A stretch of DNA of 64,000 nucleotides from Dokdonia pacifica (GTDB taxonomy: Bacteria > Bacteroidota > Bacteroidia > Flavobacteriales > Flavobacteriaceae): NCBI RefSeq assembly GCF_900188275.1, contig NZ_FZNY01000006.1, positions 62,001 to 126,000 of the forward strand, in the 5' to 3' direction. Positions 302 to 62,688 of the stretch are shown one piece after another (position 1 is the first letter of the stretch; every line of letters starts with the position of its first letter). The translations under genes and the position numbers were made by a program. The notes beneath the pieces are model-generated. The model did no database searches and was not told where the DNA came from. It was given only the letters and a program-made list of their open reading frames with translations.

Positions 302-1654
302 ATGAGAACGAAAACCCTCAAAAAGAATAAGATCAATGTAGTCACTCTTGGATGTTCTAAGAATGTATATGATAGTGAAGTATTGATGGGACAACTAAAG
401 GCAAACGGTAAAGATGTGGCTCATGAAGAAGAAGGAAATATCGTAGTGATTAATACCTGTGGTTTTATTGATAATGCCAAAGAAGAGTCTGTGAACACCA
501 TTCTTGAATATGTAAAACAAAAAGAAGAAGGTGAGGTAGATAAAGTATTTGTGACAGGTTGTTTATCTGAGCGTTATAAGCCAGATTTGCAGAATGAAAT
601 TCCAGATGTAGACCAATATTTTGGTACTACAGAATTACCAGGTTTACTAAAAGCATTAGGAGCAGATTATAAACACGAACTTATAGGAGAGCGTCTTACC
701 ACGACACCTAAAAACTATGCTTATCTTAAAATAGCCGAGGGCTGTGATCGCCCATGTTCGTTTTGTGCCATTCCTTTGATGCGTGGAAAACATAAATCCA
801 AACCTATCGAACATCTTGTTACAGAAGCTCAAAAACTGGCAGCCAACGGAGTTTCAGAATTAATTCTGATTGCACAAGATCTTACTTATTACGGATTAGA
901 CTTATATAAAAAACGAAATCTAGCAGAATTGCTAGAAGCACTCGTAAGAGTAGAAGGGATTGAATGGATTCGTTTGCATTATGCCTTTCCAACAGGATTC
1001 CCTATGGAGGTTTTGGAGGTGATGAATCGCGAGCCTAAAGTGTGTAACTATATTGATATTCCATTACAGCATATCTCAGATCCTATCTTAAAGTCGATGC
1101 GACGTGGTACCACCATGGTGAAGACCAATGCTTTGTTAGACCGCTTTCGCGAAAGCGTACCCAACATGACTATCCGTACTACTTTAATTGTAGGATACCC
1201 AGGTGAGACCGAAGAAGATTTTCAAACACTGAAACAATGGGTGAAAGATCAACGTTTTGAACGTTTAGGTTGTTTTACATACTCTCATGAAGAAAATACA
1301 CATGCTTTTAACTTAGAAGATGATGTACCTGAAGAAGTGAAAATGGACCGAGCCAATCAAATCATGGAAATTCAGTCGCAAATTTCTTGGGAATTAAATC
1401 AGCAAAAAATAGGACAAGAATTCAAAATTGTAGTCGATCGTAAAGAAGGAAATTACTTTGTTGGTCGTACAGAATTTGATAGCCCAGATGTAGATAATGA
1501 AGTGCTGATAGATGCCACAAAGTATTACTTGAAAACAGGAGGCTATACCACGGTAAAAATAATAGAAGCAGAAGATTTTGACCTATATGCAGAGCCTCTA
1601 GAAATATTGGAAAAACCAAAACCAATGCATGCCAAGTCTAAAGCTACTAATTAA
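302..1654 (+). CDS. rimO: Ribosomal protein S12 methylthiotransferase RimO
   Basis: This radical SAM enzyme adds a methylthio group to the conserved aspartate of ribosomal protein S12. The N-terminal MTTase domain has its cluster cysteines at C18 (LGCSKN), C53 (NTCGF) and C87 (TGCLSERY). The radical SAM motif CDRPCSFC (C148, C152, C155) follows, and a TRAM-like RNA-binding segment fills roughly the last 65 residues. The length of 450 aa is normal for the family. The ATG at 302 sits just behind a good -33/-7 promoter. Residues around 280 read RFRES because a full copy of the 16-bp palindrome (1142-1157) lies inside the gene. The downstream lipoprotein gene is 13 bp away and may be cotranscribed. 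The family assignment is secure. Confidence 0.96.
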   Translation: MRTKTLKKNKINVVTLGCSKNVYDSEVLMGQLKANGKDVAHEEEGNIVVINTCGFIDNAKEESVNTILEYVKQKEEGEVDKVFVTGCLSERYKPDLQNEIPDVDQYFGTTELPGLLKALGADYKHELIGERLTTTPKNYAYLKIAEGCDRPCSFCAIPLMRGKHKSKPIEHLVTEAQKLAANGVSELILIAQDLTYYGLDLYKKRNLAELLEALVRVEGIEWIRLHYAFPTGFPMEVLEVMNREPKVCNYIDIPLQHISDPILKSMRRGTTMVKTNALLDRFRESVPNMTIRTTLIVGYPGETEEDFQTLKQWVKDQRFERLGCFTYSHEENTHAFNLEDDVPEEVKMDRANQIMEIQSQISWELNQQKIGQEFKIVVDRKEGNYFVGRTEFDSPDVDNEVLIDATKYYLKTGGYTTVKIIEAEDFDLYAEPLEILEKPKPMHAKSKATN

Positions 1655-1667
1655 GTAATGTCTATAT

Positions 1668-2891
1668 ATGAGATACTTTATTCTATTACTCATCTGTGTG
1701 TCTTTTTCGTGTAAACAAAAAGAAGATACCCCTCAAGTAGAAGAAAAGGTACAAGAAGTTGTATCAGGTTCGTTATTTAAAACTATAGAAAACCCAAGTA
1801 CAGGAAAAGCACATTTGCCTAGATTAGTTGCTCAAAATGGCACTTTGCATATGAGTTGGGTAGAAGAGGAAGACTCACTTGCAATACTTAAATATGCTTC
1901 TTACAACGATGCAAAATGGACGACTCCTAAAACCATTACTTCTGGTTCGGATTGGTTTGTGAATTGGGCAGATTTCCCAGCATTGGCTGTCAATGGAGAA
2001 ACGATACTTACCAATATCCTTCAGAAATCTGCACAAGGTACATATGACTACGATGTGAAACTGAATTTGCTATCTGGAAATGAAATTATAAAATCTAATT
2101 TTCTTTTAAACACGGATGGCATTCCTGCCGAACATGGTTTTGTTTCTATGCAACCCTATGATGATGGTTTTTATGCCACATGGTTAGATGGACGTCATAC
2201 AAAAAATGAAAACGAAGAGCTTAATCAAATGAGTTTACGAGCGGCTATTGTAGGGCTAGATGGAACGATAAGAGAAGATGCCGAAATAGATGCCAGAGTT
2301 TGTGATTGTTGTAATACGGCTATTGGGATTACCTATAATGGACCAGTAGTTGTGTATCGTGATCGTTCTGAAGATACAGAAGAAATACGTGACACCTATA
2401 TCGTACGTTGGGAAGATGGTGCTTGGGGACTCCCTACAGCAGTGTATCATGACCAATGGAAATTAAATGGTTGTCCTGTAAATGGACCAGCTTTAGATAC
2501 GAAGGAAGAGAATGTGGTTATTACTTGGTTTACCGCTTCCAATGATACTCCTAGAGTTTTGGTCACTTTTTCAAAAGATAATGGTGTAACCTTTGGAGAC
2601 CCTGTACGAGTAGATGCAGGAATGGCCATTGGGCGAGTAGATACCTCGTTTCTTAATGATGGAAGTGCCTTGGTAAGTTGGTTAGAACCCAAAGAGAAAG
2701 CTGTTGTTTTGCAAATGGTGCGTGTGTATCAAGATGGACATAAAGACGCTCCCATGACTATCACAACAACATCTGCACAACGCGCCAGTGGTTTTCCTCA
2801 GATGGAAACTATTGATGATACCGTATATGTCGCCTGGACCGATCTTCAAGGGGATGCTTCACAAATAGAGATGGTATCTTTTAAACTATAA
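1668..2891 (+). CDS. BNR/Asp-box-type lipoprotein, function unknown
   Basis: A 407-aa exported lipoprotein: a hydrophobic N-terminus ends in the lipobox VSFSC with acylated C15. The body has repeated beta-propeller-like segments with W and D residues. One clear Asp-box, SKDNGVTF, is at residues 302-309, which suggests a sialidase-like (BNR) propeller fold. An unusual CDCC motif at residues 212-215 and a further Cys in GCPVNG (about 269) could bind metal or form disulfides. No catalytic arginine triad of true sialidases was recognised, so enzymatic activity should not be assumed. It starts 13 bp after rimO, on the same strand. The fold is inferred; the molecular role is unknown. Confidence 0.7.
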   Translation: MRYFILLLICVSFSCKQKEDTPQVEEKVQEVVSGSLFKTIENPSTGKAHLPRLVAQNGTLHMSWVEEEDSLAILKYASYNDAKWTTPKTITSGSDWFVNWADFPALAVNGETILTNILQKSAQGTYDYDVKLNLLSGNEIIKSNFLLNTDGIPAEHGFVSMQPYDDGFYATWLDGRHTKNENEELNQMSLRAAIVGLDGTIREDAEIDARVCDCCNTAIGITYNGPVVVYRDRSEDTEEIRDTYIVRWEDGAWGLPTAVYHDQWKLNGCPVNGPALDTKEENVVITWFTASNDTPRVLVTFSKDNGVTFGDPVRVDAGMAIGRVDTSFLNDGSALVSWLEPKEKAVVLQMVRVYQDGHKDAPMTITTTSAQRASGFPQMETIDDTVYVAWTDLQGDASQIEMVSFKL

Positions 2892-2904: not shown

Positions 2905-2920
2905 CGCTTTCGCGAAAGCG
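2905..2920. repeat. 16-bp palindrome CGCTTTCGCGAAAGCG, intergenic copy
   Basis: A perfect copy between the BNR lipoprotein and the convergent AraC gene, preceded by TATA. A half-copy, AAAGCGTATAAAG, lies about 40 bp downstream (about 2959-2971). There is no T-run, so it is not a classical terminator. It is one of at least 17 copies in the window. Confidence 0.9.
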
Positions 2921-8686: not shown

Positions 8687-8694
8687 TATTTTTG
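8687..8694 (+). promoter_or_regulatory. -7 element of bshC
   Basis: TATTTTTG matches the Bacteroidetes -7 consensus TAnnTTTG and lies 21 bases before the ATG at 8716. A longer reading from a TTG at 8692 would put the promoter inside the gene, which supports the ATG as the start. No clear -33 TTTG was found. Confidence 0.5.
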
Positions 8695-8715
8695 AAAGGA
8701 AATTGTTATACCAAG

Positions 8716-10311
8716 ATGCAAAAAGACACCATTACGTATTCTGAGACGGGATATTTTTCAAAGCTTATTTGTCATTATCTAGATCAGGATGAACGAGTAA
8801 CTCCTTTTTATCATAGATTCCCATCATTAGAGAATTTTGAAGCACAGATTATAGAAAAGCAAGCTTGGTTTTCATCGGCTTCTAGGAATGCATTGGTGAC
8901 CTCTTTAGAAAAACAATACGAACAATTTTCGGTATCTGATGCCACACAATTACATATAGAAAAACTTTCGGCAGCTACGACTTTTACTATTACAACAGGG
9001 CACCAGTTAAACCTCTTTACGGGACCGTTGTATTTTTTATATAAGATTATCCATACGATTACGCTTTCGCGAAAGCTAAAACAACAACACCCCAATTATG
9101 ATTTTGTACCTGTGTATTGGATGGCTACCGAAGATCATGATTTTGATGAAATTAATTACTTCCGATTCAAAGGATCAAAAATTCAATGGAATCGGGAAGA
9201 TGGTGGTGCTGTAGGCGAACTATCTACCGAAGGTCTTGATGCTGTTTTGGAATTATTTTCGACAGCTTTAGGGAGCTCAAAAAATGCACAATATTTAGCC
9301 TCTCTTTTTGAAGAAGCCTATATAAAACATAGTAATCTTGCAGATGCGACGCGATACCTGGCTAATGAGCTTTTTGGTGAATATGGTCTTGTGATTGTAG
9401 ATGGAAATGATGTAGGTTTAAAAACACTATTTGCACCTTATGTAGAGCGAGAACTATTTGAAGAAGTTGCTCATCAAACAGTAAATTCACAAACAGAAAA
9501 ACTCACTGCTTTAGGGTATCCAGAACAAGTACACCCTAGAGAAATTAATCTTTTCTATATCATAAAAGGGATTAGAGAGCGTATCATTAGAGATGGCAAT
9601 GATTTTGTAGTAAATAATACAGAGATTCGTTTTACAGAAACTGAAATTCGTTCTGAATTGCAAGCATATCCTGAGCGCTTTTCTCCAAATGCATTATTGC
9701 GCCCTTTATTTCAAGAAATTATTTTACCTAATCTTACCTATATAGGCGGAGGAGGAGAATTGGCTTATTGGTTTCAATTGAAATCTTGTTTTGAAGCAAT
9801 GGAAGTTCCTTTTCCTATGGTATTGCTTAGGAATTCTGCATTGATCAGAACAGAAAAGCAAAAGAAAAAAACGGAAGCATTATCGATTACAGATTCACAA
9901 TTGTTTTTAAAACAAAATGAGTTAGTGAATCAGAAAATACGCGCCATTTCAAATATAGATATAGATCTTTCTAAACAACGCCAATTTTTACAAGAGCAGT
10001 TTAAAGAAATGCATACTCTTGCTGCCGAGACTGATGCTTCTTTTATAGGCGCTGTCAAAGCACAAGAAGTAAAACAATTAAAAGGGCTTGATCACTTAGA
10101 ACAACGGTTATTAAGGGCTCAAAAAAGGAAGCTGAAAGATCAGGTGCAACGCGTTGTTGATATTCAAAATGCTGTATTTCCATTACAAAGTTTACAGGAA
10201 CGCAATACCAATTTTGCAGAATTCTATTTGGAATTTGGAACTGATTTAGTGCCTGCATTACTAGAATGCTTAGATCCTTTAGGTGGAGAATTTACATTAG
10301 TTACTTTGTAG
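8716..10311 (+). CDS. bshC: Putative bacillithiol synthase BshC (cysteine ligase)
   Basis: 531 aa. BshC is thought to join cysteine to GlcN-malate in the last step of bacillithiol synthesis. Recognisable features are TTGHQLNLFTGPLYFLYK near residue 94, YWMATEDHDFDEI near 134, and the C-terminal coiled coil (about 375-480) typical of this family. The ATG at 8716 was chosen over a TTG eight codons upstream because the -7 element overlaps that codon. A 15-of-16 copy of the palindrome (9062-9076) is read here as LSRKL. The 3' end overlaps the convergent trmL by 11 bp. The family assignment is confident; the enzymatic step rests on family knowledge. Confidence 0.93.
   Translation: MQKDTITYSETGYFSKLICHYLDQDERVTPFYHRFPSLENFEAQIIEKQAWFSSASRNALVTSLEKQYEQFSVSDATQLHIEKLSAATTFTITTGHQLNLFTGPLYFLYKIIHTITLSRKLKQQHPNYDFVPVYWMATEDHDFDEINYFRFKGSKIQWNREDGGAVGELSTEGLDAVLELFSTALGSSKNAQYLASLFEEAYIKHSNLADATRYLANELFGEYGLVIVDGNDVGLKTLFAPYVERELFEEVAHQTVNSQTEKLTALGYPEQVHPREINLFYIIKGIRERIIRDGNDFVVNNTEIRFTETEIRSELQAYPERFSPNALLRPLFQEIILPNLTYIGGGGELAYWFQLKSCFEAMEVPFPMVLLRNSALIRTEKQKKKTEALSITDSQLFLKQNELVNQKIRAISNIDIDLSKQRQFLQEQFKEMHTLAAETDASFIGAVKAQEVKQLKGLDHLEQRLLRAQKRKLKDQVQRVVDIQNAVFPLQSLQERNTNFAEFYLEFGTDLVPALLECLDPLGGEFTLVTL
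9062..9076. repeat. Palindrome copy inside bshC
   Basis: Fifteen of the sixteen palindrome bases are present (the last G is replaced by T). Read in the frame CTT TCG CGA AAG as LSRK. Confidence 0.85.
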
Positions 10312-14457: not shown

Positions 14458-14539
14458 AGGATTGGAATAGTTTCCCCTAAAATACTAAAAAAAGAGTCAA
14501 GAAGAATTTACTTTTTCGCTTTCGCGAAAATGTATGCTG

Positions 14540-14640
14540 TTTAAGGGTTTAAGGGTTTAAGGGTTTAAGGGTTTAAGGGTTTAAGGGTTTAAGGGTTTAA
14601 GGGTTTAAGGGTTTAAGGGTTTAAGGGTTTAAGGGTTTAA
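14540..14640. repeat. Tandem repeat (TTTAAGGG) x about 12.6
   Basis: Twelve identical copies of TTTAAGGG plus a final TTTAA, uninterrupted. The array begins about 80 bp upstream of the GMC oxidoreductase start codon. Such perfect short tandem arrays are prone to slippage and could change promoter spacing. Confidence 0.95.
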
Positions 14641-14822
14641 AAAAGATATATAAGATACAAAGAATAGGATTCGTTTCTTCAATGGAACTACATAGATTAT
14701 GTTAGATGATTGAGTGATTTTCGCTTTTCGCGAAAATAGTATCGAAATTATCTGTTAGAAATAGAGTAACACTCTATTTTATGTGCTAAAAAAACTCATT
14801 TCTATAGAGAGGGAAGGGTGGG

Positions 14823-14987
14823 TGATCTCTCAACTGCGCTTGAGATGACTAGTTCTGTCATTTCGAGGGAAACGTAGTGGCGAGAAATCGCATAACAGTG
14901 AGTACGTCTAGGTTGACTTGTTTGAGATCTTGTTAGCTACTTTTCTGAGCTAGCCTATGTGATCTCTCGACTGCGCTCGAGATGACT
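14823..14987. repeat. REP-like hairpin repeats
   Basis: Two copies of a hairpin with the core CTCGACTGCGCTCGAG (14960-14987; a variant with CTCAACTGCGCTTGAG at 14823-14850) flank a related unit starting GTCATTTCGAGGGAAACG (about 14856). These are typical intergenic repeats of Bacteroidetes. They have no T-run and no coding frame. Confidence 0.7.
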
Positions 14988-15066
14988 CATCTTTTGTGAA
15001 GTGTATGTAATGATGCTGTTTTTTCTCACCCTTTGGGAGAGATGTCCGTAGGACAGAGAGGGAAGA

Positions 15067-16080
15067 TTATGCAAAAAACCAATAATCTTCTACGGGTTTT
15101 TTGGTCCATTTTTGGAGGTGTTCTAAAATTTCTTTCTTCCCATCTGGGGACGAAACAACAATAAGGATTTGTGGATTTTCTATGGTTGGAATAGCTTCAA
15201 AAGACTGCATGCGTACCTCATAAATATCTTTGCCTATCTGTTTTGAATTATTAGATACCCAATGGAATGTATCTTGGTACGACTGTAAGATTTTTGCCAT
15301 ATCTTTTCCATTACGACCAGCACCCCAAAGTACCAAGGGTCTACTATAATCTCGATCGATCTCGTAAAAAAAACGCATTTTTAAATCAAAATAACGATTG
15401 TCTTTATATTCCTCCCACGTTCGGGATATTCTATTAGAGCGATCTCTCCAGTGATGTAAAATAACATTTATTCCCATAACTTTTAAACCATGACGATACA
15501 TTCTAAAACAGAGATCATAATCTTCTGGATATACAATGGGATTAAAAGCACCTACGGCATCAAAATCTTCTTTATGGATAAGCCAGCAATGTGAAGGAAT
15601 CACACATTCCTTATAAATTTGTTGGTAATGAGTACTTGTTTTGGCTACTTCATTCAGCCAGCGTTCATAGCGTAAAAAACCATCTCCTACTTCACCTTCG
15701 TCTACAAAATGTTCGGTGCCTCCAGCAATGACATGACCTTTGCCGTATTTATGCCACTCATCTACGAGTACTTGAATTTTGTAGTCTGGCATTTTGTCGT
15801 CAGAGTCCATTCTATTAATGAGTGTGCCTTTAACTTCTCGATATCCGTATTGTAAGGTCGGAATAAGTTTAGGCGTATCACTATGAAATACACGTATTCT
15901 TGAGTCCGCTTTCGCGAAAGCGTCCAAAATATCAGGCGTAGCATCGGTACTATGATCATTTACGGCAATGAGTTCCCAGTTTTGATAGGTTTGTGCTATG
16001 ATAGAATCGATACAGTCGTGTAAATACGGAGCCGTGTCTTTTACGGCCATGATAATAGAAACGAGGGGTTCTGGATTCAT
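15067..16080 (-). CDS. GT2-family glycosyltransferase with C-terminal Rossmann-like domain
   Basis: 337 aa from the ATG at 16080, which begins MNPEPLVSIIMAVKD. A longer reading to 16167 only adds a divergent N-terminus that overlaps a palindrome copy. The GT-A fold shows VSIIMAVKD, AVNDHSTDAT and the metal-binding NRMDSDDK. After about residue 245 the segment PLVLWGAGRNGKDMAKIL looks like a nucleotide-binding Rossmann motif, an extra domain not found in every GT2. A full palindrome copy (15907-15922) is read as DAFAKAD. It probably adds a sugar to a surface glycan and is paired with the sugar-nucleotide epimerase gene upstream. Confidence 0.88.
   Translation of the reverse strand: MNPEPLVSIIMAVKDTAPYLHDCIDSIIAQTYQNWELIAVNDHSTDATPDILDAFAKADSRIRVFHSDTPKLIPTLQYGYREVKGTLINRMDSDDKMPDYKIQVLVDEWHKYGKGHVIAGGTEHFVDEGEVGDGFLRYERWLNEVAKTSTHYQQIYKECVIPSHCWLIHKEDFDAVGAFNPIVYPEDYDLCFRMYRHGLKVMGINVILHHWRDRSNRISRTWEEYKDNRYFDLKMRFFYEIDRDYSRPLVLWGAGRNGKDMAKILQSYQDTFHWVSNNSKQIGKDIYEVRMQSFEAIPTIENPQILIVVSSPDGKKEILEHLQKWTKKPVEDYWFFA
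15907..15922. repeat. Palindrome copy inside the GT2 gene
   Basis: A perfect CGCTTTCGCGAAAGCG, read on the minus strand as GCT TTC GCG AAA GCG (AFAKA). Confidence 0.9.
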
Positions 16081-16094
16081 AGATTTATAATTTT

Positions 16095-16108
16095 CGCTTT
16101 CGCGAAAG
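16095..16108. repeat. Palindrome copy upstream of the GT2 start
   Basis: Fourteen bases of the palindrome lie 15 bp before the GT2 start codon, in the 88-bp gap after the epimerase gene. Confidence 0.8.
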
Positions 16109-16168
16109 TAACTAAAGCTTCTAATATAGTCATAAGAAATGCTCAAGATAAAAGAGAGAATTTGCACG

Positions 16169-17164
16169 TTATGACTTCCAAGACTCAGGTAAGTTTTTAG
16201 TAATCTCTATGTTTTCAAATGTACTACTTTCTCTAGCGCCATGACTGTATACCCAATCTACCATTTTTAAGATGCCTTCTTGTAAAGGAGTTTCTGGCGA
16301 AGGATTAAAAATGGATGAAAATTTGGAATGGTCTGAATAGGCATGAACAACTTCTTCTCGTTGTTCGAGATGTTCTATATGTACTTCTGTTTTCATTGCC
16401 GTAGCAATTTCTTGTGCTAAGGTATTGACGGTAGTAGGAATGTCACTTCCTATATTAAAGGTTTGATTATACGCTTTCGCGAAAGCGGGAGCCTTTGCTA
16501 TATAAGGCGCAACATCATCTATATAGGTGAACGCACGACTTTGATTGCCATCTCCAAAAACAGTTAATGATTTATTTTGAAGGATTTGATTCATGAAAAT
16601 ACCCACCACATTACGATACTTATCTCCGATATTTTGATTCGGACCATATACATTGTGAGGTCTAAAAGTGATATAATTTAATCCAAAGAGCTTATGCGCA
16701 TTCTCAAGATCCATCTCTACGGCATATTTGGCAATGCCATACGGATCTTCGGGTTGTGGTTTTTGTTGTTCCTGTAAAGGAAGCTTCTGATCTCCATATA
16801 CAGCAATAGAAGAAGTAAACACAAAACATTTGATAGCGTGATTTACAGATGCATTAATGAGGTTGATACTTCCTATAAGATTGTTTTGGTAATTAAACTT
16901 GCGAATAAAATGACTCAAGCCTTCTGCGGCATAGGCGGCTAGATGATATACATAATCAAATGTGTATTCCTCAAAAAGAGCATTGACGAGTTGTGTATCT
17001 GTAATAGCGCCTTCTTTAAAAATAGCTTTAGGATGTACATTTTCTTTAAAACCACCAGAAAGGTCGTCTAAAACAATCACTTTATGATTTTGCTGTATAA
17101 GATGTGTGACGACATGAGAACCTATAAAACCTGCGCCTCCAGTAACTAAAGAAGTGTATTGCAT
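16169..17164 (-). CDS. NAD-dependent epimerase/dehydratase (extended SDR)
   Basis: 331 aa. The NAD-binding motif TGGAGFIGSH is at residues 8-17 and the catalytic Tyr/Lys pair in DPYGIAKYA is near residue 145, with FRPHNVYGP following. This is the UDP-glucose 4-epimerase-like branch of extended SDRs. The exact sugar is unknown. A full palindrome copy (16472-16487) is read as PAFAKAYN. The gene lies directly upstream of the glycosyltransferase, which suggests supply of an activated sugar for a surface glycan. Confidence 0.88.
   Translation of the reverse strand: MQYTSLVTGGAGFIGSHVVTHLIQQNHKVIVLDDLSGGFKENVHPKAIFKEGAITDTQLVNALFEEYTFDYVYHLAAYAAEGLSHFIRKFNYQNNLIGSINLINASVNHAIKCFVFTSSIAVYGDQKLPLQEQQKPQPEDPYGIAKYAVEMDLENAHKLFGLNYITFRPHNVYGPNQNIGDKYRNVVGIFMNQILQNKSLTVFGDGNQSRAFTYIDDVAPYIAKAPAFAKAYNQTFNIGSDIPTTVNTLAQEIATAMKTEVHIEHLEQREEVVHAYSDHSKFSSIFNPSPETPLQEGILKMVDWVYSHGARESSTFENIEITKNLPESWKS
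16472..16487. repeat. Palindrome copy inside the epimerase gene
   Basis: A perfect 16-bp copy, read as AFAKA on the minus strand. Confidence 0.9.
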
Positions 17165-17917: not shown

Positions 17918-18388
17918 TTATTTTTTTACTTGTGCTTTTGCTTGCTTGAAATATTTGATAGGAGGGAAGAGCATTCCAAAGGATTCTCCGTCGTGTTTTC
18001 CTAAATGTTTATGATGCATTTTGTGTGCACGTCTTAAAGCTTTTCCATACCAACCATCAGCATTTCTAAATAATTTAAAACGCTGGTGTATAAAAATATC
18101 GTGTACCATAAAATAAGCAACACCGTAAGCAAAAATTCCTAAGCCAATAGGAAGTCCAGCCCAAAAACCTTCATAACGCCATAATAAGAAGCATCCAATA
18201 CTTATTAAGGCATAAAAGATAAAGAACAGGTCATTGCGTTCCCACCAAGAATCATGTTTTTTATGATGGTGATCTTTATGTACTGACCACATAAAACCAT
18301 GCATTACATATTTATGGGTAAACCAAGCCATAAATTCCATGATACAAAATGTGATTAAAAAAATTGAAATCCAAAGAAAGGTTTGCAT
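17918..18388 (-). CDS. crtZ: Beta-carotene hydroxylase CrtZ
   Basis: 156 aa, a membrane diiron hydroxylase that converts beta-carotene to zeaxanthin. The histidine boxes are HKYVMH (residues 25-30), HKDHHH (37-42), HDIFIH and HKMHHKH. Four hydrophobic segments surround them. It is the last gene of the carotenoid operon, 8 bp after crtB. Assignment is confident. Confidence 0.93.
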   Translation of the reverse strand: MQTFLWISIFLITFCIMEFMAWFTHKYVMHGFMWSVHKDHHHKKHDSWWERNDLFFIFYALISIGCFLLWRYEGFWAGLPIGLGIFAYGVAYFMVHDIFIHQRFKLFRNADGWYGKALRRAHKMHHKHLGKHDGESFGMLFPPIKYFKQAKAQVKK

Positions 18389-18396
18389 TGTATAAC

Positions 18397-21716: not shown

Positions 21717-21732
21717 CGCTTTCGCGAAAGCG
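21717..21732. repeat. Palindrome copy upstream of the carotenoid regulator
   Basis: A perfect 16-bp copy, extended to 20 bp (21715-21734, TA on both ends), about 90 bp upstream of the carH-like start codon. Confidence 0.9.
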
Positions 21733-22286: not shown

Positions 22287-22290
22287 TGTG

Positions 22291-26422: not shown

Positions 26423-26438
26423 CGCTTTCGCGAAAGCG
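26423..26438. repeat. Palindrome copy between LytTR fragment and peptide gene
   Basis: A perfect copy, extended to 20 bp (26421-26440). It is the last copy before the 11.4-kb gap that ends at 37870. Confidence 0.9.
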
Positions 26439-37869: not shown

Positions 37870-37885
37870 CGCTTTCGCGAAAGCG
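37870..37885. repeat. Palindrome copy after the FKBP-like gene
   Basis: A perfect 16-bp copy starting 6 bp after the stop codon and followed by TATAC. It ends the 11.4-kb palindrome-free stretch. Confidence 0.9.
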
Positions 37886-42734: not shown

Positions 42735-43358
42735 ATGTATAAAGTTTTTGTGAATGATATTCCTATAATTCTATCTACAGAAAAAGAGATTGGGAATAAT
42801 TATAAATCGATTCCGCTTAAGAAGGTTAGGCTGAAAAGAATTATAAAGAAAATGATCAATGGAGAGCTCATCTATGTGAATCTATATCACAAAAAAGAAG
42901 AAAAGCTACTGAAGTTTCTTAAAAAGAAATTACCGGTTATTGTTGCTGGTGGAGGACTCGTATATAATTCTAAAAAAGAGATTCTTTTTATTTATAGAAA
43001 TGGAAAATGGGATTTGCCTAAAGGTAAAATTGAAAAAGGGGAAGATATTCAAACGTGTGCAATTAGAGAGGTAGAAGAAGAAACAGGAGTTTCGGATATC
43101 CAATTGAAAAAATTTATCACAAAAACGTATCACGTCTTTAAGCGTAATGGAAAGTTTCGATTAAAGGAAACCTATTGGTATGAAATGTATACCGATTATA
43201 ATGGTGAATTGACACCTCAAAAAGAGGAAGGGATCAAAAAAGCCAAATGGAAAGATTTCCAAAAAACGCAAGAAGCTTTAGAAAAATCGTATAATAATAT
43301 CAAACTTCTTTTTCCAGCAGCTTATTTAACGAAGCATCCTAACGATCGGGTATCGTAA
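42735..43358 (+). CDS. Nudix hydrolase
   Basis: 207 aa from the ATG at 42735; a TTG seven codons upstream would overlap pyrE. The Nudix box is complete (GKIEKGEDIQTCAIREVEEE, then TGV). An unusual N-terminal region of about 70 residues precedes the hydrolase domain, as in a Bacteroidetes NUDIX subfamily. The substrate is unknown. The 3' end overlaps the convergent M14 peptidase gene by 33 bp. Confidence 0.9.
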   Translation: MYKVFVNDIPIILSTEKEIGNNYKSIPLKKVRLKRIIKKMINGELIYVNLYHKKEEKLLKFLKKKLPVIVAGGGLVYNSKKEILFIYRNGKWDLPKGKIEKGEDIQTCAIREVEEETGVSDIQLKKFITKTYHVFKRNGKFRLKETYWYEMYTDYNGELTPQKEEGIKKAKWKDFQKTQEALEKSYNNIKLLFPAAYLTKHPNDRVS

Positions 43359-45080
43359 GTGTGCTTTTTCATAATTAGGTGATTTTTTATGGATCCAAGC
43401 TAATTGTGCATACCAGTTTTGCGCAAAGGATGGTTCGGATGCTTTCTTAGCTTCAAATTCAGCTTTGATATCAGGATTCTGGTGTAAGAACTCCAAGGCT
43501 TTGTCTTCCCAAACATAAGGAGAGAAGCCTTCTTTTTGCTGGAGAATAGTGTCAAAAAAGTTCCAGTTGAAAAAGCTGTCATTTGCTTCAGGTTCTAGTG
43601 TTTCTAGTAAATAGCGTAATCCTTTTTTATTTTTTTCTAAGAGTACCATATATCCATCTCTTGGAATGGTAACTTCTTCTTGTGTTTTTCTTACCTGAGT
43701 ACCGTAATGTGGATAATGACCTTCATATGGGTTTCGGGAGGTTTGGTAACTGTCTATATGATAGACCTCAGCCATAAATGTAGTGTCTTTTTTTAATTGC
43801 TTAAACCGAATGTTATTTTCGCGTAATTTTAGCACAATATCTCGATAGCCTCTCGGAATGAAATAGGCCTTAGGAATGGTAACTTCTTTAGTGGGCTTAA
43901 AGTAATTGTAATAGGTGACTTCTTTTGTAAAGGGTTTGTCTCTATTATATTTTAAACGCTGTTTTCCTGTGATTTCGCTTGGTATCATTTCACCTTCATA
44001 TCCTAAGAAGTTCAGGGTAGATGTTTGCGTGCTATCTATGGCGTATGCTAGTGGGTAGGTATCCGCTTTCGCGAAAGCGTTAAAAGCATCTTTACGTAAA
44101 ACTTTGATCTTTTCTCCTTCCTGAGCAGTTACTTTCAAAGCACTTTTCATCAATTCATACGTGCCTTCTACTCTAGATTTATAAGGCTTAAGCATATGAG
44201 TTTCTACCATTAAACCGATGGTATTCCATAGGGTAGTGTAGCCTGTAGAATATCTAGGATGATCCATAAACTGACTAAATCCTTTTTCTGGTGTACGGTT
44301 AAATACATTCACATACGGGGTAATATCCCAGTTTTTTGATTTTAAATCTAGCTCTAATTTTGGCTGAAAATCTTGATAGGTATAATCCCCTAACACGCCT
44401 CCTAGTTTGTTGTGTTGTGTAAATAGATGTGTGAGTGTGTATTGGTAATCGGCTCCATTACTCACATGATTGTCAATAAAAACATCTGGTTCTACGAGAT
44501 GAAAAACCTCTGTAAATGCTTGTGAGTTTTTAGTGTCATTTTTTATAAAATCACGATTGAGGTCATAGTTTTTTGCATTGCCTCTAAAACCATAAGCTTC
44601 TGGGCCATTTTGATTTGTTCTTGATGTACTGTTTCTAGTAAGAGCACCCCCTATGTTATAAACAGCAATTGCACCTACCCACGTATTTTGAGGGGCTTCT
44701 ATAGTTCCTTGTGCTAAATCACGCATGAGCATCATTGTGGCATCAATCCCGTCAGATTCTCCTGGATGAATCCCATTATTAATCAATACCCGACGTACAT
44801 CTTGATCTTCTGAAAATTCACTCTCTAGTGTACGACTAGGATTAAAAGTAATGAGCGTTAATGGTTTTCCAATATCTGTAGTTCCTACTTCATAAGTTTT
44901 TATAGAAACATAGGCATTGTCTAAATCTTTGTAAAACTGAATTACCTCATCGTAGGTGGGTGTTTGAGTACCTCCACTTTTTTCAAAAGTAGTTGTAAAA
45001 TCAATATTTTCAGGATTGTCTACAGATTTTGAACAGGAGAATAGTGCAGCTATAGATAGAAGGTAAAATGCGTATTTCAT
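43326..45080 (-). CDS. M14-family metallopeptidase lipoprotein
   Basis: 584 aa. Lipobox LFSC (C16). The zinc motif NNGIHPGESDGID supplies H and E, VFIDNHVSNGADYQ the third histidine, and TIGLMVETHML the catalytic glutamate. It is shorter than the 827-aa M14 protein at 6 kb and lacks its C-terminal extension. A palindrome copy (44064-44079) is read as NAFAKAD. Likely an outer-surface or periplasmic carboxypeptidase. Confidence 0.88.
   Translation of the reverse strand: MKYAFYLLSIAALFSCSKSVDNPENIDFTTTFEKSGGTQTPTYDEVIQFYKDLDNAYVSIKTYEVGTTDIGKPLTLITFNPSRTLESEFSEDQDVRRVLINNGIHPGESDGIDATMMLMRDLAQGTIEAPQNTWVGAIAVYNIGGALTRNSTSRTNQNGPEAYGFRGNAKNYDLNRDFIKNDTKNSQAFTEVFHLVEPDVFIDNHVSNGADYQYTLTHLFTQHNKLGGVLGDYTYQDFQPKLELDLKSKNWDITPYVNVFNRTPEKGFSQFMDHPRYSTGYTTLWNTIGLMVETHMLKPYKSRVEGTYELMKSALKVTAQEGEKIKVLRKDAFNAFAKADTYPLAYAIDSTQTSTLNFLGYEGEMIPSEITGKQRLKYNRDKPFTKEVTYYNYFKPTKEVTIPKAYFIPRGYRDIVLKLRENNIRFKQLKKDTTFMAEVYHIDSYQTSRNPYEGHYPHYGTQVRKTQEEVTIPRDGYMVLLEKNKKGLRYLLETLEPEANDSFFNWNFFDTILQQKEGFSPYVWEDKALEFLHQNPDIKAEFEAKKASEPSFAQNWYAQLAWIHKKSPNYEKAHLRYPIVRMLR
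44064..44079. repeat. Palindrome copy inside the second M14 gene
   Basis: A perfect 16-bp copy read as AFAKA. Confidence 0.9.
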
Positions 45081-47656: not shown

Positions 47657-48316
47657 TTAAAAAAATGGAGTGTATTGTAACACTCTAAAATCAATAGTAG
47701 TGAATTTGGGATTTTCACTTTTCATTTTTTTATAAAGCGCTAAACTACCTACCGCTCTATTGGCTGCTCCCGAAGGTGCTGTCAAGGAGACTGTTTTTAT
47801 TGTCCGTCCTGCCCATATAAATGAATGTATACGAGGTACTTCATTAGAAAGTATATGAAGTGGGACATTTTTTTCTTTTGCCTTTCGGCGAAAAAAGTAT
47901 TCGGGGCCATTTTTACTGTTTCCTCCGGTGAATAATAAGGTGTCAACGTTAGGATATGCCTCTAGGTAACCAAAAATATCTCGTAATTGAACGTTTTGCA
48001 TTCCGAGATCTGAGGCATCTATTTTTGTCCTTTCTGAAGAGGCTACAATATCACAAACCCCTATTTTTCGCGAAAGCAAAAAATGCTTGCGTTGCTCAAT
48101 CGCTCTATGGGTGTTTTCATACACAAGTCCTAAATCAAATATTTTATCTAAAATAGGCCATAACTGACCATTGCTACTTCCGTAACAAAAGTCTACATCT
48201 TTATCATTTAAAGCTCCTGTTGTAAATCTAGGAGGTGGTAAGGTGCCTACAATGAGTTTGGTGGCCCCTTCTAAATTATAAGGTTCGTATGGGTGTGTAT
48301 GAAGAAAAATAGACAT
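47657..48316 (-). CDS. Uracil-DNA-glycosylase-like family protein
   Basis: 219 aa. The LIVGTLPPPR motif near residue 21 and the C-terminal SLTAPSGAANRAVGS correspond to motifs 1 and 3 of the UDG superfamily. The repair substrate is not clear. A truncated palindrome copy (about 48066-48077) is read as LLSRKIG. It lies 4 bp after the TPR-protein gene, on the same strand. Confidence 0.75.
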   Translation of the reverse strand: MSIFLHTHPYEPYNLEGATKLIVGTLPPPRFTTGALNDKDVDFCYGSSNGQLWPILDKIFDLGLVYENTHRAIEQRKHFLLSRKIGVCDIVASSERTKIDASDLGMQNVQLRDIFGYLEAYPNVDTLLFTGGNSKNGPEYFFRRKAKEKNVPLHILSNEVPRIHSFIWAGRTIKTVSLTAPSGAANRAVGSLALYKKMKSENPKFTTIDFRVLQYTPFF

Positions 48317-49805: not shown

Positions 49806-50570
49806 TTAGCGTATGAAAACCAACTCATTTTTCTCTAGATTAGAATGCTCCTCACTAAATCCGTAGCCTTCATAATCAAATCCTTTTAACCCTTCTAAAG
49901 TAGTAATGTCTTTATCTATGATGTATCGTACCATCATACCTCTTGCTTTTTTAGCAAAGAATGAGATCACTTTGAGCTTGTCATTTTTAAAATCTTTAAA
50001 AATAGGAGTGATCACAGGTACTTTTAAGTTTTTAGGTTGAATCACTTTAAAGTATTCATTACTTGCCAAGTTGATAAATAACTCATTATCGGCGAGTTCT
50101 TCATTTAAATGATGGGTAAGGATGTCTCCCCAGTATTTATATAGATTTTCTTTACGGCCTACTTTTAATTTTGTGCCCATTTCTAGGCGATACGCTTGCA
50201 TTAAATCTAAAGGTTTTAAGATACCATACATTCCAGAAAGAATGCGTAATGTATCTTGAAGTTGGTCTAATTTTTCTTCAGGCAAACTATATGCATCCAA
50301 ACCGTTGTACACATCTCCATCAAAGGTATATACAGCAGGGCGTGCATTTTCGGTAGTGAAAGGGGTATTAAAATCTAGTGTACGTTGCTTGTTAAGCTCT
50401 GCAAGTTTATCACTGATGTGCATTAACTCTCCAATGGCCTTTTTTGATTTTCGCGAAAGCGCACCATTTAGGGTACTCGCCTGTTCTAGAAAAGCAGGTT
50501 GTGTAGCACGTGTAGTTGGAATTTCTGATTCAAGGTTTAGTGATTTGGCAGGAGATACAACAATTTTCAT
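49806..50570 (-). CDS. yaaA: Peroxide stress protein YaaA
   Basis: 254 aa, normal for the UPF0246/DUF328 family that limits free iron under peroxide stress. Seen: [14 protein letters not shown] at the N-terminus, [32 protein letters not shown] and [17 protein letters not shown] partial palindrome copy (50449-50461) is read as ALSRKSKK. It has its own terminator. Confidence 0.93.
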
Positions 50571-52611: not shown

Positions 52612-53592
52612 ATGTCAAAAAATGTTGCCGTTCTCATGGGAGGTTATAGCAGTGAATATGAGATTTCTATTCAAAGCGGAACCACAGTTGTCAATGCGTT
52701 AGATCCTGAAAAATATACCGTATATGCCATCCATATATTAAAAGATAAATGGATATGTATGTATGAAGGAGAAGAGTTTTATATGGATTTGGGAGAATTT
52801 AGCGTCTTACTTCCATTTGGGAAAGTATATTTTGATGTATGTTATAATACCATTCATGGTACTCCGGGTGAAGATGGAGAGATTCAGGCGTATTTAAAGA
52901 TGATGGGAATTCCACAAACCAGTTGTGATTTTTATCAAAGCGCCCTTACATTTAATAAAAGAGATACCTTGAGTGTGTTGCGTCCTTACGGGATTGATAT
53001 GGCGCAATCTGTATATATCAATAAAGGAGATGTGGTAGATGACGCTTTCGCGAAAGCTATTAAAGAACGCATCCAATTTCCATGTTTCGTAAAACCTAAC
53101 CGAGCAGGATCTAGCTTTGGGATTAGCAAAATATATAACGAAAAGGGACTCGCGCCTGCACTCGAAAAGGCCTTTGCTGAAGACGATGAAGTTCTCATCG
53201 AATCTTTTTTGAGTGGCACCGAAGTTTCTGTAGGTGTCTGCACCTATCAAGGAAAAACCAAAGTATTGCCTGTTTGCGAAATTGTATCAGAAAACGACTT
53301 CTTTGATTACCAAGCCAAATATGAAGGCAAATCTCAAGAAATTGTACCCGCACGATTAAGTGACAATCAAACTGAAAGTGTGCAATCCCTAACTGGCGCT
53401 ATTTATGAAGTATTAAAATTGAAAGGCATCTGCCGTATAGATTTCATTTTCCATAATGGGAAACCGCACTTTGTGGAAGTAAATTCGAATCCTGGGCTCT
53501 CTCCAGAAAGTATCATCCCAAGACAAGCGAAAGCCGCAGGGATTTCCTTAACAGATTTGTTAGGAGAAGCTATTGAAGCGGCGATGGGGTAG
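52612..53592 (+). CDS. ddl: D-alanine--D-alanine ligase
   Basis: 326 aa ATP-grasp ligase that makes D-Ala-D-Ala for peptidoglycan. Seen: AVLMGGYSSEYEISIQSG at the start, HGTPGEDGEIQAYL near 83, FPCFVKPNRAGSSFGISK near 159 and the metal-binding CRIDFIFHNGKPHFVEVNSN near 271. A 15-of-16 palindrome copy (53043-53057) is read as DAFAKAIK. The divergent PASTA gene lies 190 bp upstream. Confidence 0.95.
   Translation: MSKNVAVLMGGYSSEYEISIQSGTTVVNALDPEKYTVYAIHILKDKWICMYEGEEFYMDLGEFSVLLPFGKVYFDVCYNTIHGTPGEDGEIQAYLKMMGIPQTSCDFYQSALTFNKRDTLSVLRPYGIDMAQSVYINKGDVVDDAFAKAIKERIQFPCFVKPNRAGSSFGISKIYNEKGLAPALEKAFAEDDEVLIESFLSGTEVSVGVCTYQGKTKVLPVCEIVSENDFFDYQAKYEGKSQEIVPARLSDNQTESVQSLTGAIYEVLKLKGICRIDFIFHNGKPHFVEVNSNPGLSPESIIPRQAKAAGISLTDLLGEAIEAAMG
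53043..53057. repeat. Palindrome copy inside ddl
   Basis: Fifteen of sixteen bases, read in the frame AFAKA. It is in a region between two ATP-grasp subdomains where loops vary. Confidence 0.88.
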
Positions 53593-57644: not shown

Positions 57645-58922
57645 CTAACCAGCAATTTCTTCCAGCGCTTCTACCAGGTAATCAATATCTCTTTTCGTAA
57701 TAAAAATGGCAAAAGAAATACGTACTCCATTCAATCCAAAAGTATTCATAGGCCGAGTGTCTATACCATAATTTTCGGACAGTTGTTTTTTCACATCTTG
57801 CACATGCTTACCCACAACCGCTACCGTTTGTATAGCACATGATAAGTCATCATTAGCCGGAGTTTTAAACGTAAAGGTTGGATTGTCTTTTAGCTTCTCT
57901 CTAAAATAATGTTTTAGCTCATACGATCGTTTTGTAATCTTTTCCTTTCCAATCTTAGTGTGGAAATCTATGGCCGCACCCAGTCCTAAGTATTCTGGTA
58001 AATTACGCGTATTATAATTTTCAAGACGACGTATACTAGGATCATCATACCCATATGCTACCACCAATGGTTTTAGATAGTGCTGGCTCTCTTTTTTTGC
58101 ATAAAATACACTAATGCCTTTCGGCGAAAAAAGCCACTTGTGAGCACTCGCTGTATAAAAATCACACCCTAAATCATGGAGGTCTATTTCAAACATTCCT
58201 GAACTTTGTGCACCATCTACAGCTACCAGAATTCCTCTCTTGTGTGCCATTTCTGAAATCTCTTTCACGGGAAGTATCATTCCATTGGTATTTACCATGT
58301 GGCACATCGAAATCACTTTGGTTTTAGAAGTAATCGCATTTCTGTACACCGCAACAATATCTTCAACAGTTTTAGGAAGGATAGGAAGTACAGGACGTAC
58401 TAATTTTACTCCTTTTGACTCTTGCCATACTTTCCAAGGGACGGTACCACTGTAATGTTCATGATCTGCAAGAATGACCTCATCACCTGGTTGCAAATCA
58501 AAACTACGTGCAATTAGATTCATCCCTTCGGTGGTATTATGTGTAATGGCTATTTCTTCATTAGAGACAGTAAATAGATCAGCAACTTTTTGACGAACCG
58601 TTTCTTTCTCATCACTCCAATCTCCCCACATGTACTTAGAAGGAAACCCATCTAAGGTAGCTCTAAACGTATTGGTTGCCTCTTGTACTGGAATAGGTGA
58701 AGGTCCTAAAGACGCATTATTAAAATAATGAAGTCCTTCAGCAAAAGAAAATTGTTGTTTTATCTGTTCCCAGAAAGCTTCAGAATCATCTTTATAATCT
58801 ATACTGGATACTATTTCTTTTTTAGAAGTAGAAGCATTTGCAGTATAAGAAGGTAATAAAGTAGCTCCTGTCACTCCAGCGAGTAACTGTTTTACAAAAG
58901 ACCGACGACGATTGTTTTTCAT
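57645..58922 (-). CDS. Class V aminotransferase-like PLP enzyme, Tat-exported
   Basis: 425 aa. The N-terminus NRRRSFVKQLLAG is a twin-arginine signal. The PLP-binding lysine is in ASAHKWLFSPKG near residue 260 and the cofactor loop in TEGMNLIARSF near 130; it is closest in style to isopenicillin N epimerase or cysteine desulfurase-like enzymes. An exported PLP enzyme is uncommon. Substrate unknown. Confidence 0.88.
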   Translation of the reverse strand: MKNNRRRSFVKQLLAGVTGATLLPSYTANASTSKKEIVSSIDYKDDSEAFWEQIKQQFSFAEGLHYFNNASLGPSPIPVQEATNTFRATLDGFPSKYMWGDWSDEKETVRQKVADLFTVSNEEIAITHNTTEGMNLIARSFDLQPGDEVILADHEHYSGTVPWKVWQESKGVKLVRPVLPILPKTVEDIVAVYRNAITSKTKVISMCHMVNTNGMILPVKEISEMAHKRGILVAVDGAQSSGMFEIDLHDLGCDFYTASAHKWLFSPKGISVFYAKKESQHYLKPLVVAYGYDDPSIRRLENYNTRNLPEYLGLGAAIDFHTKIGKEKITKRSYELKHYFREKLKDNPTFTFKTPANDDLSCAIQTVAVVGKHVQDVKKQLSENYGIDTRPMNTFGLNGVRISFAIFITKRDIDYLVEALEEIAG

Positions 58923-58978: not shown

Positions 58979-59004
58979 TTATACGCTTTCGCGAAAGCGT
59001 ATAA
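58979..59004. repeat. Longest palindrome copy, 26 bp
   Basis: The core CGCTTTCGCGAAAGCG (58984-58999) is extended by TTATA on the left and TATAA on the right, a 26-bp perfect palindrome. It lies between the aminotransferase and PNGase F-like genes. Confidence 0.92.
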
Positions 59005-59047: not shown

Positions 59048-60256
59048 TTATTCTAAATCGTATGTAATATACGCAGAAACCATCCAATAATTATTTTCAG
59101 TGTCAGTAGCTATTTGTGCTTCCGGAATGGAAATGGTTAAGGTATGCTTTCCTGCTGATAAATTGTCTAAAGGAATAACTTCTGGTATTACATCACTTCC
59201 TGGACACCAATTAGAACGTGAGAAATCTGAAGATGCTATCTGTTGTGTAGAGGTCTCATCTTCCATAATTTTATTGGCAGGCCACGTAGCAGATGTGGGA
59301 TTGAAACGCCTAAAACTTGCGCAATCATCTCTCCATGGGATAAATGATTTAATCATTGTTCCGTCTAGTGTGATGATATTTTCTTTTTTCACAAACTCAT
59401 CACCACCTCCATGTCCGCCATGACCCGTAGTGATATAATGGAGTTTTGCATTTTTAAAAGGCATATTTATAGAAAAATCTACACGGATGGTATCTTTAGA
59501 AAAGGCATCAAACAATCGTTGTCCAGAAGCATACTTAGTTGTATTCACAAGCGGTAATACTTCTTGTTTCCTACTTGTGTGATTAGGAAAATCACTTTCA
59601 TCAAAATCTAAGGAAACAGAAATAGTATACCCTTCTTTTGTCCAAGTATCTATAAAAACCCCTACATATACCTCATCGTGTAATACCGGTAAAAGATGAG
59701 AAATATCTTGCGACCAAGAAACTTTTTCTTCCCAATGAGGAATATAAATAGGCTTACGATCTTTTACGCGTTCACTATCTGTAAAATGTCCTACGCCAAA
59801 AGGGGTCATAAATCGGAGTAATTCTAGATTAGGTTTGTATGTAATACTATCTTTTGTAAAGGAAGTGACAGCCGGATAAGTTTCTTTAAGTTGCGCTAGG
59901 TCAAAGTTACCATTTTCAAAATCTAATAATGAAATATCAGTATTCGTTGGAATAACAAATAACGACCCCGATTTATCCCAAGGATCTCCATTAGAAGTCA
60001 ATGAAACATTAACTGTCGCTTCTGTTTGTAAGGTGTAGTTTGGAATTTTTACTTTTTTTACAATTACACGGCCTGCATCCAAACGCAAAATAGCATCCTG
60101 TAAAGGAGAAGGTCCAGACTTAAATGCCATATCAAAATACAAATTTGTGTCTTCAAAAACATCTACAGTTGTATCTCCTAATGGTTCAATAATGGATTCC
60201 TTACAGGAGAAAAATAGTACAACTAAAGAGATGTATAAAAATGATTGTGTTTTCAT
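59048..60256 (-). CDS. PNGase F-like lipoprotein
   Basis: 402 aa. Lipobox LFFSC (C18). The C-terminal half carries the peptide-N-glycosidase F signature region: TTGHGGHGGGDEF, then FIPWRDDCASFRRFNP and SSDFSRSNWCPG. PNGase F removes N-glycans from glycoproteins. The N-terminal 210 residues match the first PNGase F jelly-roll domain only loosely. Whether the catalytic acid residues are all present needs alignment. The protein could remove glycans from algal or animal glycoproteins. Confidence 0.83.
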   Translation of the reverse strand: MKTQSFLYISLVVLFFSCKESIIEPLGDTTVDVFEDTNLYFDMAFKSGPSPLQDAILRLDAGRVIVKKVKIPNYTLQTEATVNVSLTSNGDPWDKSGSLFVIPTNTDISLLDFENGNFDLAQLKETYPAVTSFTKDSITYKPNLELLRFMTPFGVGHFTDSERVKDRKPIYIPHWEEKVSWSQDISHLLPVLHDEVYVGVFIDTWTKEGYTISVSLDFDESDFPNHTSRKQEVLPLVNTTKYASGQRLFDAFSKDTIRVDFSINMPFKNAKLHYITTGHGGHGGGDEFVKKENIITLDGTMIKSFIPWRDDCASFRRFNPTSATWPANKIMEDETSTQQIASSDFSRSNWCPGSDVIPEVIPLDNLSAGKHTLTISIPEAQIATDTENNYWMVSAYITYDLE

Positions 60257-61711: not shown

Positions 61712-61926
61712 ATTCTTGAGTTCTGTGACTACAAAAATATGAGGTGATTCACTTATCGGTATATTTTTACACAGAAACATCGATGAACCGACAAGAGGTT
61801 AATTTTTATCGATGAAATACACGGTAATATATATATTCTTATGAAAATGTAATTTTAAAAGAAAGCTTTTAAATGTTATTATTTGTTTTTGACAGCTTGA
61901 GGTTTTAGGGTCTTTACTTTATTTAA

Positions 61927-62688
61927 TTACCGTATCGTTTTTACAAAGTCTGCAACACTATTTGCTCCGTGAGCAGTGATATGTTTTATGAATGCACTTC
62001 CAATAATGGCACCTTTCGCGAAAGCGGTAGCCGCCTGAAATGTATCTGAATTACTAATACCAAAACCTACAATTTGAGGGTTTTTAAGATGCATAGCATG
62101 AATACGTTCAAAATAAGCAGATTGCGTATTGCCAAAACCACTTTGTGCTCCTGTAGTACTCGCACTACTTACCATGTATATAAATCCATCACTAGCAGCA
62201 TCTATCTGCCTGATACGCTCATCACTAGTTTGAGGTGTGATTAAAAATACATTAAGCAAGCCATACTTTTCAAAAATTGCTTTGTACTGTGCTTCATACT
62301 CAGCAAGTGGAAGATCTGGCATAATAATCCCATCAATACCAATTTCAGCACAGGTTGCACAGAACTTTTCTACCCCATATTGTAGCATAGGGTTAAAATA
62401 CCCCATTACAATCAATGGAATATCAATGGTTTTTCTAACATCTTTTAGCTGCTCAAAGAGCAATTGTGTAGTCATTCCATTTTTTAATGCGGCCGTACTG
62501 CTTTCCTGAATGGTAGGACCATCTGCTAATGGATCTGAAAATGGAAGTCCAATTTCTACCATATCAACCCCACTATCTTGTAATTGTTGTAAGATAGACA
62601 TCGTATCATGAATAGCAGGATAACCCGCCGTGAAATAGAGACTGAGTAATTTTTTATCTTCTTGTAATTTTTGTTGTATTCTGTTCAT
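61927..62688 (-). CDS. trpA: Tryptophan synthase alpha chain
   Basis: 253 aa. It cleaves indole-3-glycerol phosphate. VEIGLPFSDPLADGPTIQ near residue 46 contains the catalytic Glu, MPDLPLAEYE the second acid and VGFGISNSDTFQAA the phosphate loop. A truncated palindrome copy (62013-62026) is read as TAFAKGAI. It follows trpB with a 190-bp gap that holds REP-like repeats. Confidence 0.95.
   Translation of the reverse strand: MNRIQQKLQEDKKLLSLYFTAGYPAIHDTMSILQQLQDSGVDMVEIGLPFSDPLADGPTIQESSTAALKNGMTTQLLFEQLKDVRKTIDIPLIVMGYFNPMLQYGVEKFCATCAEIGIDGIIMPDLPLAEYEAQYKAIFEKYGLLNVFLITPQTSDERIRQIDAASDGFIYMVSSASTTGAQSGFGNTQSAYFERIHAMHLKNPQIVGFGISNSDTFQAATAFAKGAIIGSAFIKHITAHGANSVADFVKTIR
62013..62026. repeat. 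Palindrome copy inside trpA
   Basis: CTTTCGCGAAAGCG, fourteen bases, read as AFAK. Confidence 0.8.

Follow-up and report, generated by a model that had tools for sequence, protein, structure and literature searches.

A 14–16-base palindrome repeated hundreds of times in Dokdonia genomes is a candidate site for a chromosome-wide DNA-binding protein

Results

A palindrome in the window and in its genome

The stretch of DNA analysed here (64,000 nucleotides from Dokdonia pacifica, hereafter the window) carries, scattered through its genes and intergenic gaps, nine perfect copies of a 16-base palindrome, CGCTTTCGCGAAAGCG, and six further matches with one to three mismatches (Table 1). An earlier note, made from the letters of the window, had pointed to this repeat: all nine of the perfect 16-mers that it listed were found where it had placed them, and its eight partial copies were all confirmed, none more than 3 bases from the coordinate it gave, mostly the start of the partial match (Table 1 gives the start of the 16-base frame). 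The note's judgement that the count is far above chance was borne out, with 15 matches of up to three mismatches in the window, cf. 0.03 in dinucleotide shuffles. A 10-base core, TTTCGCGAAA, is common to all 17 copies (nine perfect and eight partial), including those at 14723 and 48063, which exceed the three-mismatch limit. The flanks of these 17 copies share nothing except a loose preference for A+T, and the copies are therefore not parts of one insertion sequence.

The genome-wide counts that the note had proposed were made. The assembly containing the window (G000; 5,520,745 bases in 31 contigs) holds 576 perfect copies but no copy of the word reversed, and 17 of the 17 same-genus relatives examined, some of them incomplete genomes, hold 138–711 copies each. 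Across the family, the palindrome occurs at all in 54 of 395 genomes and exceeds 13 copies in six, namely G000 (576) and G011 (630) in genus g1, G027 (495), G248 (579) and G374 (448) in genus g11, and G203 (153) in genus g183. A scan of the phylum found a copy in nine of 296 genomes, none with more than two except G000. High counts are thus confined, among the genera sampled, to Dokdonia, Nonlabens and the genus of G203. The first two names come from similarity to named contigs (window to a Dokdonia contig, 81% over 2.4 kb; G016 to another, 95% over 8 kb; G027 to two Nonlabens contigs, about 75%), which suggests that the window's genus is Dokdonia and that g11 is Nonlabens. A scan of named genomes, which is no census, returned at least 102 stretches; among the matches listed, 82 were from Dokdonia or Nonlabens, five from strain BBFL7 and 15 from others. 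Genus g89 (G109, G286 and G400, with 12, 13 and 5 copies) is intermediate between site-rich genomes and those with stray copies. In 20-kb samples of 11 site-poor genomes (G019, G023, G025, G030, G031, G034, G035, G109, G061, G073 and G083; five contigs of 1.0–2.8 kb were left out), no other palindrome of 12–16 bp reached three copies.

Two proteins were compared between the site-rich genera. The D-ala-D-ala ligase encoded in the window is 54–56% identical to its best Nonlabens and G203 matches, cf. 53–60% in 17 site-poor genomes of the family. Nonlabens NrdA is 78–79% identical to that of four Dokdonia genomes (G004 gave no full-length match), 78% to that of G203, and 75–82% to those of the 15 site-poor genomes with a full-length match. 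By these identities, with no tree, the three site-rich genera do not appear to stand out as closest kin. Only four coding sites were comparable between genera, and none of the four was in common.

Spacing and placement

The closed 3.29-Mb chromosome of the relative G016 was sampled as 20 stretches of 20 kb around its length. These contained 99 perfect copies and 141 cores, cf. four reversed cores, with two to eight perfect copies in every stretch and no clustering along the chromosome. The octamer TTCGCGAA occurred 141 times in the sample, each time inside a core. Only two core-to-core gaps were shorter than 600 bp, when 24 were expected at random and 17 under a structured null in which coding or intergenic placement was retained and at most one site was allowed per intergenic gap. 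In 200-kb stretches of G016, G008, G006, G009 and G004, the coefficient of variation (CV) of the gaps was 0.65, 0.53, 0.50, 0.68 and 0.64, respectively, and gaps below 600 bp numbered 0, 1, 0, 2 and 1, cf. 9.1–12.1 expected. Nonlabens G027 had 17 cores in 100 kb with a gap CV of 0.39. The cores are therefore evenly spaced in the five Dokdonia genomes, which are related, and in the Nonlabens stretch, and gaps below 600 bp are nearly absent in Dokdonia; by comparison, Chi in Escherichia coli (44 in 200 kb) had a gap CV of 1.34 and was not even. According to the earlier note a clear position bias would support a role in chromosome organisation; along the G016 chromosome even spacing was found instead of such a bias, and strand bias is impossible because the motif is a palindrome. 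One core-free 14.3-kb gap in G016 (C1, about 1593786–1608070) falls on an internally repetitive stretch with many off-diagonal matches of 64–70% with G003.

Intergenic DNA, which makes up only 10–12% of the sequence by a simple open reading frame (ORF) caller, contained 67 of the 141 cores in the G016 sample and 31 of 62 in the G016 200-kb stretch. The median distance of intergenic cores in the sample was 28 bp to stop codons and 80.5 bp to start codons, a bias that may reflect promoter avoidance. The commonest reading frame of in-gene cores is Ala-Phe-Ala-Lys-Ala (36 of 74 in the same sample). Site density was 0.9–2.4 per 10 kb in DNA unshared with the four other 200-kb stretches, cf. 3.3–4.0 in DNA common to all five.

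The recognised sequence

In two overlapping G016 samples, pooled, the sequence logo is symmetric, with A+T-rich arms reaching to about 14 bases from the centre. Near misses are rare: in the five 200-kb stretches, 263 14-mers were perfect, and 28, 43 and 64 had one, two and three mismatches, when base composition predicts 0.07 with one mismatch and 1.5 with two. Among one-mismatch 16-mers in three stretches, 47 of 54 were changed at an outermost base, 43 of these from C to T. The two outermost bases change independently (8 double changes observed, 8.3 expected), so base pairing is not what is kept. The sequence pattern would be better explained by a symmetric protein that reads the bases directly than by an RNA hairpin.

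Conservation and gain of sites

At 44064, 11 of the 14 same-genus relatives that align there (about 72–84% overall identity) have the perfect site, and 13 have an intact core. More broadly, cores were present at the mapped position in 42 of 46, 41 of 47, 40 of 43 and 23 of 33 cases in genomes of 84, 81, 81 and 75% identity, respectively. In base-by-base alignments, coding cores were identical in 23 of 23 cases in G003, 24 of 26 in G008, 24 of 27 in G006, 24 of 25 in G009 and 13 of 20 in G004 (the last at 75% identity), against a background 10-mer identity of 65, 34, 21, 21 and 7.6%, respectively; of eight intergenic cores compared with G004, six were kept (background 13.9%). Differences at third codon positions inside and outside sites were 0/83 and 107/844 for G003, 6/93 and 254/930 for G008, 11/97 and 297/966 for G006, 2/89 and 291/913 for G009, and 9/71 and 376/730 for G004, about 3- to 14-fold fewer inside in the four more distant genomes. 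Coding sites are thus kept far above background, and at the nucleotide level.

Relatives that lack a coding site differ mostly by substitutions (48063, 62011), with some small gaps (e.g., 50446 and 53043); in the coding cases compared, sites are gained by substitution. An apparent compensatory relocation, with a new site no more than 1.5 kb away for five of six and six of eight lost sites, disappeared under a null conditioned on shared sites (65% observed, cf. 70% under the null, in 68 non-independent pairwise cases).

Stray copies, phages and viral contigs

Clustered copies in otherwise site-poor genomes were collected as 13 stretches from 12 genomes, with 37 of their 39 cores inside ORFs. 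For 11 of these genomes, from several genera of Flavobacteriaceae (G111, G116, G303, G138, G167, G029, G128, G284, G326, G106 and G224), the ORFs resemble a copper/heavy-metal efflux island; for G425 they are other genes. Judged by ORF starts and lengths, the putative parts of the island are an RND pump, an outer-membrane factor, a P-type ATPase and a membrane-fusion protein. Core spacings of 2446 and 933 bases recur between islands. The island looks transferred, and we read its stray copies as likely passengers of DNA from a site-rich donor.

Two phages of a Nonlabens relative (Persicivirga in the records; 71 kb in total), neither with an annotated integrase, contain no core and nothing within three mismatches of the site. 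Chance predicts about none in phage DNA of this size, so this absence means no enrichment and not avoidance. In IMG/VR, the 16-mer was found in 41 stretches on 30 contigs, 11 of which had two or more copies in the sampled DNA. One contractile-tailed contig, IMGVR_UViG_3300040781_000495, has six perfect palindromes in 27.9 kb along with terminase, portal, sheath and baseplate genes, and another has four copies and an integrase. The GC content of the former is 0.45, above that of Dokdonia (G203 stretches have 0.42–0.48); the phage may come from a host in a third site-rich group, for instance the one containing G203.

Candidate machinery

Candidate machinery was sought in 26 genomes, 15 of them site-rich and 11 site-poor. 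ParB is single-copy in 14 of the 15 site-rich genomes, the window's own genome having two. The methyltransferase families C5 (PF00145), N6_N4 (PF01555) and D12 (PF02086) exceeded the cut-off in 6, 2 and 9 of the 15, respectively. None of these three was over the cut-off in G006 (505 copies), G009 (556) or G248 (579), although G006 has one N6_N4 stretch below it; other methyltransferase families, including type I/IIG, were not searched. The T2SSE/PilB ATPase (PF00437) was over the cut-off in 5 of 15 site-rich and 2 of 11 site-poor genomes, and was not over it in the single-contig genomes G006, G008, G009, G016 and G203; the genomes without it include the two richest, G003 (711 copies) and G016 (704). 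On these counts there is no Noc analogue, and neither a methyltransferase of the three families nor a type IV pilus is obligatory.

Copies within the window

A cluster at 14517–16487 packs five cores into 2 kb, in or next to genes for a glycosyltransferase and an epimerase. The four that were aligned with the close relative G014 (all but 14517) are retained there, and such crowding is unusual given the rarity of gaps below 600 bases elsewhere. The genes hosting these cores are the glycosyltransferase and epimerase, with no DNA-binding gene among them. Elsewhere in the window, a fatty-acid hydroxylase gene adjoins a gene of the squalene/phytoene synthase family (carotenoid-type) at 17918–19236, followed by a low-GC stretch (0.29–0.32) at 20001–36000, and no core occurs between 26438 and 37870.

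Table 1. Copies of the palindrome in the 64-kb window, with their gene context and retention in relatives.
Feature	Coordinates	Context and retention
Perfect 16-mer	1142..1157	Within ORF 302–1654 (radical SAM/TRAM protein)
Perfect 16-mer	2905..2920	Intergenic, 13 bases past ORF 1668–2891
1-mismatch copy (outermost base)	9062..9077	Within ORF 8692–10311
2-mismatch copy, intact core	14517..14532	Intergenic
Core-only copy, TTTCGCGAAA at 14726–14735	14723..14738	Retained in close relative G014
Perfect 16-mer	15907..15922	Glycosyltransferase-2 ORF 15067–16167; one outermost-base change in G014
2-mismatch copy	16095..16110	Glycosyltransferase-2 ORF 15067–16167; identical in G014
Perfect 16-mer	16472..16487	Epimerase ORF 16169–17164; identical in G014
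Perfect 16-mer	21717..21732	Intergenic, between ORFs 20692–21627 and 21855–22286
Perfect 16-mer	26423..26438	Outside listed ORFs of at least 80 aa; 18 bases past 26093–26404
Perfect 16-mer	37870..37885	Just past ORF 36821–37864; core retained in 4/4 aligning relatives (G014, G011, G009, G004)
Perfect 16-mer	44064..44079	Within ORF 43326–45080
Partial copy, intact core	48063..48078	ORF 47657–48316; of 14 aligned relatives, G014 and G007 retain the core and 12 lack it or have it broken
3-mismatch copy, intact core	50446..50461	ORF 49806–50570; retained in closer relatives G014, G013, G017 and G007
1-mismatch copy (outermost base)	53043..53058	D-ala-D-ala ligase ORF 52612–53592
Perfect 16-mer	58984..58999	Intergenic, between ORFs 57645–58922 and 59048–60256; retained in G014 despite diverged flanks
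2-mismatch copy	62011..62026	ORF 61927–62688; present in G014, absent from 8 other aligned relatives

Discussion

Hundreds of evenly spaced copies, protected from change, make the palindrome probably a chromosome-wide protein-binding site. Our tentative interpretation, drawn from sequence comparisons, is that it forms a selected array of sites for a putative lineage-specific, two-fold symmetric (dimeric) DNA-binding protein, which would read about 28 bp, made up of the 14–16-bp core and its A+T-rich arms. The site would act on the whole chromosome and not on individual genes, and would be maintained at about one every few kb, its most probable role being that of evenly placed anchors for folding, bridging or otherwise handling the chromosome. 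Within this interpretation, we infer that a dimeric protein is the reader, that selection acts on the spacing and that the role is structural. The earlier note had offered two readings, a chromosome-organising protein or a spreading repeat. An organising protein remains a leading one, now for a conserved, genome-wide site that is not an insertion sequence, and the analogies the note named failed when tested. The motif does resemble parS and Noc sites in being a 16-bp palindrome of similar composition; against this, it occurs hundreds of times along the sampled chromosome (two to eight copies in each of the 20 G016 stretches), 14 of the 15 site-rich genomes have no second ParB, and its half sites stand two bases closer together than those of parS.

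The main rival, which we consider somewhat unlikely, is that molecular drive built the palindrome up as a mark of self DNA or for DNA uptake, with preferential uptake or recombination continuing until there is about one site per transferred fragment. The A+T-rich arms are similar to the Haemophilus signal. Such a mark would explain well both the lower density in unshared DNA and the separate accumulation in separate genera (none of four comparable positions in common), and the two site-free Nonlabens phages suit it too. Like the DNA uptake sequences and uptake signal sequences of Neisseriaceae and Pasteurellaceae, the palindrome is lineage-restricted, dispersed in genes and gaps (here with the gaps enriched) and evenly spaced, as Karlin is reported to have found for uptake sequences (PMC1939737, excerpt); moreover, Riemerella columbina, placed in the Flavobacteriaceae, is transformable and prefers its own DNA (Huang 2021, PMC7965970, excerpt). 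However, uptake sequences are described as not palindromic (PMC1939737, excerpt), and single mismatches are much rarer here, at 263 perfect to 28 one-mismatch copies, cf. 438 to 947 for the Actinobacillus uptake sequence (same excerpt). The usual form of uptake is also hard to reconcile with a PilB/T2SSE-type ATPase over the cut-off in only five of 15 site-rich genomes and missing from 10, including the richest two, and a search of the open-licence literature for natural transformation in Dokdonia gave nothing on this.

Other explanations fared worse. A Chi-like but symmetric mark, by which a nuclease or defence system would spare self DNA, is improbable. It would suit the integrase-bearing viral contig with four copies, the structural-gene-bearing one with six, and the confinement of copies in other genera to the apparent efflux island, but the two site-free Nonlabens phages without an annotated integrase evidently infect. 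Chi is 8 bp long and polar. It is likewise genome-wide and of similar density, but it is short and not evenly spaced, and the Dokdonia motif, a perfect palindrome, has no polarity. Marginally less credible still is a palindrome kept by a DNA methyltransferase with linked repair, after the fashion of HIP1 (GCGATCGC) in cyanobacteria, the other analogy of the earlier note. HIP1 is also a perfect palindrome in huge excess, found in genes and gaps alike, and its near misses too fall mainly at the outermost base (PMC4390886, excerpt), as in 47 of 54 cases here; the Dokdonia site differs in having 14–16 bp plus arms instead of 8, in occurring at about one core per 3 kb with even spacing, and in the lack of any C5, N6_N4 or D12 methyltransferase over the cut-off in three of 15 site-rich genomes (G006, G009 and G248; type I/IIG families were not searched). 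An RNA-level element, either a terminator or an mRNA hairpin, is largely refuted and very improbable. The extended site can fold as RNA (−10.7 kcal/mol for 26 nt), and intergenic DNA holds about half of the cores, closer to stop than to start codons, but the other half lie inside genes, none of 37 tandem-gap sites has five or more T in the next eight bases, the outermost changes do not covary, and in sense orientation a C-A mismatch (13) is commoner than a U-G wobble (5). A mobile or REP-like inserted repeat, as the note's second reading had it, would account for hundreds of dispersed copies, yet flanks differ beyond about 14 bases from the centre and coding orthologues without a site differ mostly by substitution (48063 and 62011, with small gaps at 50446 and 53043); this explanation is mostly refuted and the least credible of all.

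We therefore favour, tentatively, a role in chromosome architecture over an uptake or drive mark, and several observations weigh against that preference. The five Dokdonia genomes are related and have many sites in common, and so are not five independent tests of evenness. In G203 (26 cores in 120 kb, CV 0.83) evenness is not significant, nor is it in the window itself (CV 0.76, P = 0.21; three gaps below 600 bp, cf. 2.35 expected), with its cluster of five cores within 2 kb, and G016 tolerates a core-free gap of 14.3 kb. Density varies several-fold within the genus (138 copies in 2.6 Mb at the low end, 711 in 3.3 Mb at the high end, some of the genomes being incomplete), and slow accumulation by drive would likewise account for the sparser sites in unshared DNA. 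It would be odd for a basic structural system to be limited to three genera with no clear sign of being closest kin, and no binding protein was found among the protein families searched.

HIP1 was reported in 1995 (reference in PMC1939737, excerpt), and its role was still debated in 2015 (Elhai 2015, PMC4390886, excerpt). In the open-licence literature, with subscription journals and preprints outside the search, TTTCGCGAAAGC gave no match, TTTCGCGAAA gave nothing that by title concerned repeats in bacterial genomes, and searches for palindromes with Dokdonia or Nonlabens gave, by title, no description of the motif. New here are the even spacing of cores, the strong retention of coding sites and the ratio of 263 perfect to 28 one-mismatch 14-mers.

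The motif is long enough to serve as bait in a pulldown, tightly conserved and evenly spaced, and it occurs in named marine species with strain numbers, so the role of hundreds of identical palindromes is directly testable. It is possible, although we hold this broader proposal with more doubt than the binding-site array itself, that the chromosomes of three flavobacterial genera carry a ruler, in the form of a long palindrome that selection on spacing has placed about every 3 kb and that a dedicated dimeric protein reads. If the even spacing does reflect selection, the palindrome would give the bacterial chromosome a ruler encoded in its sequence.

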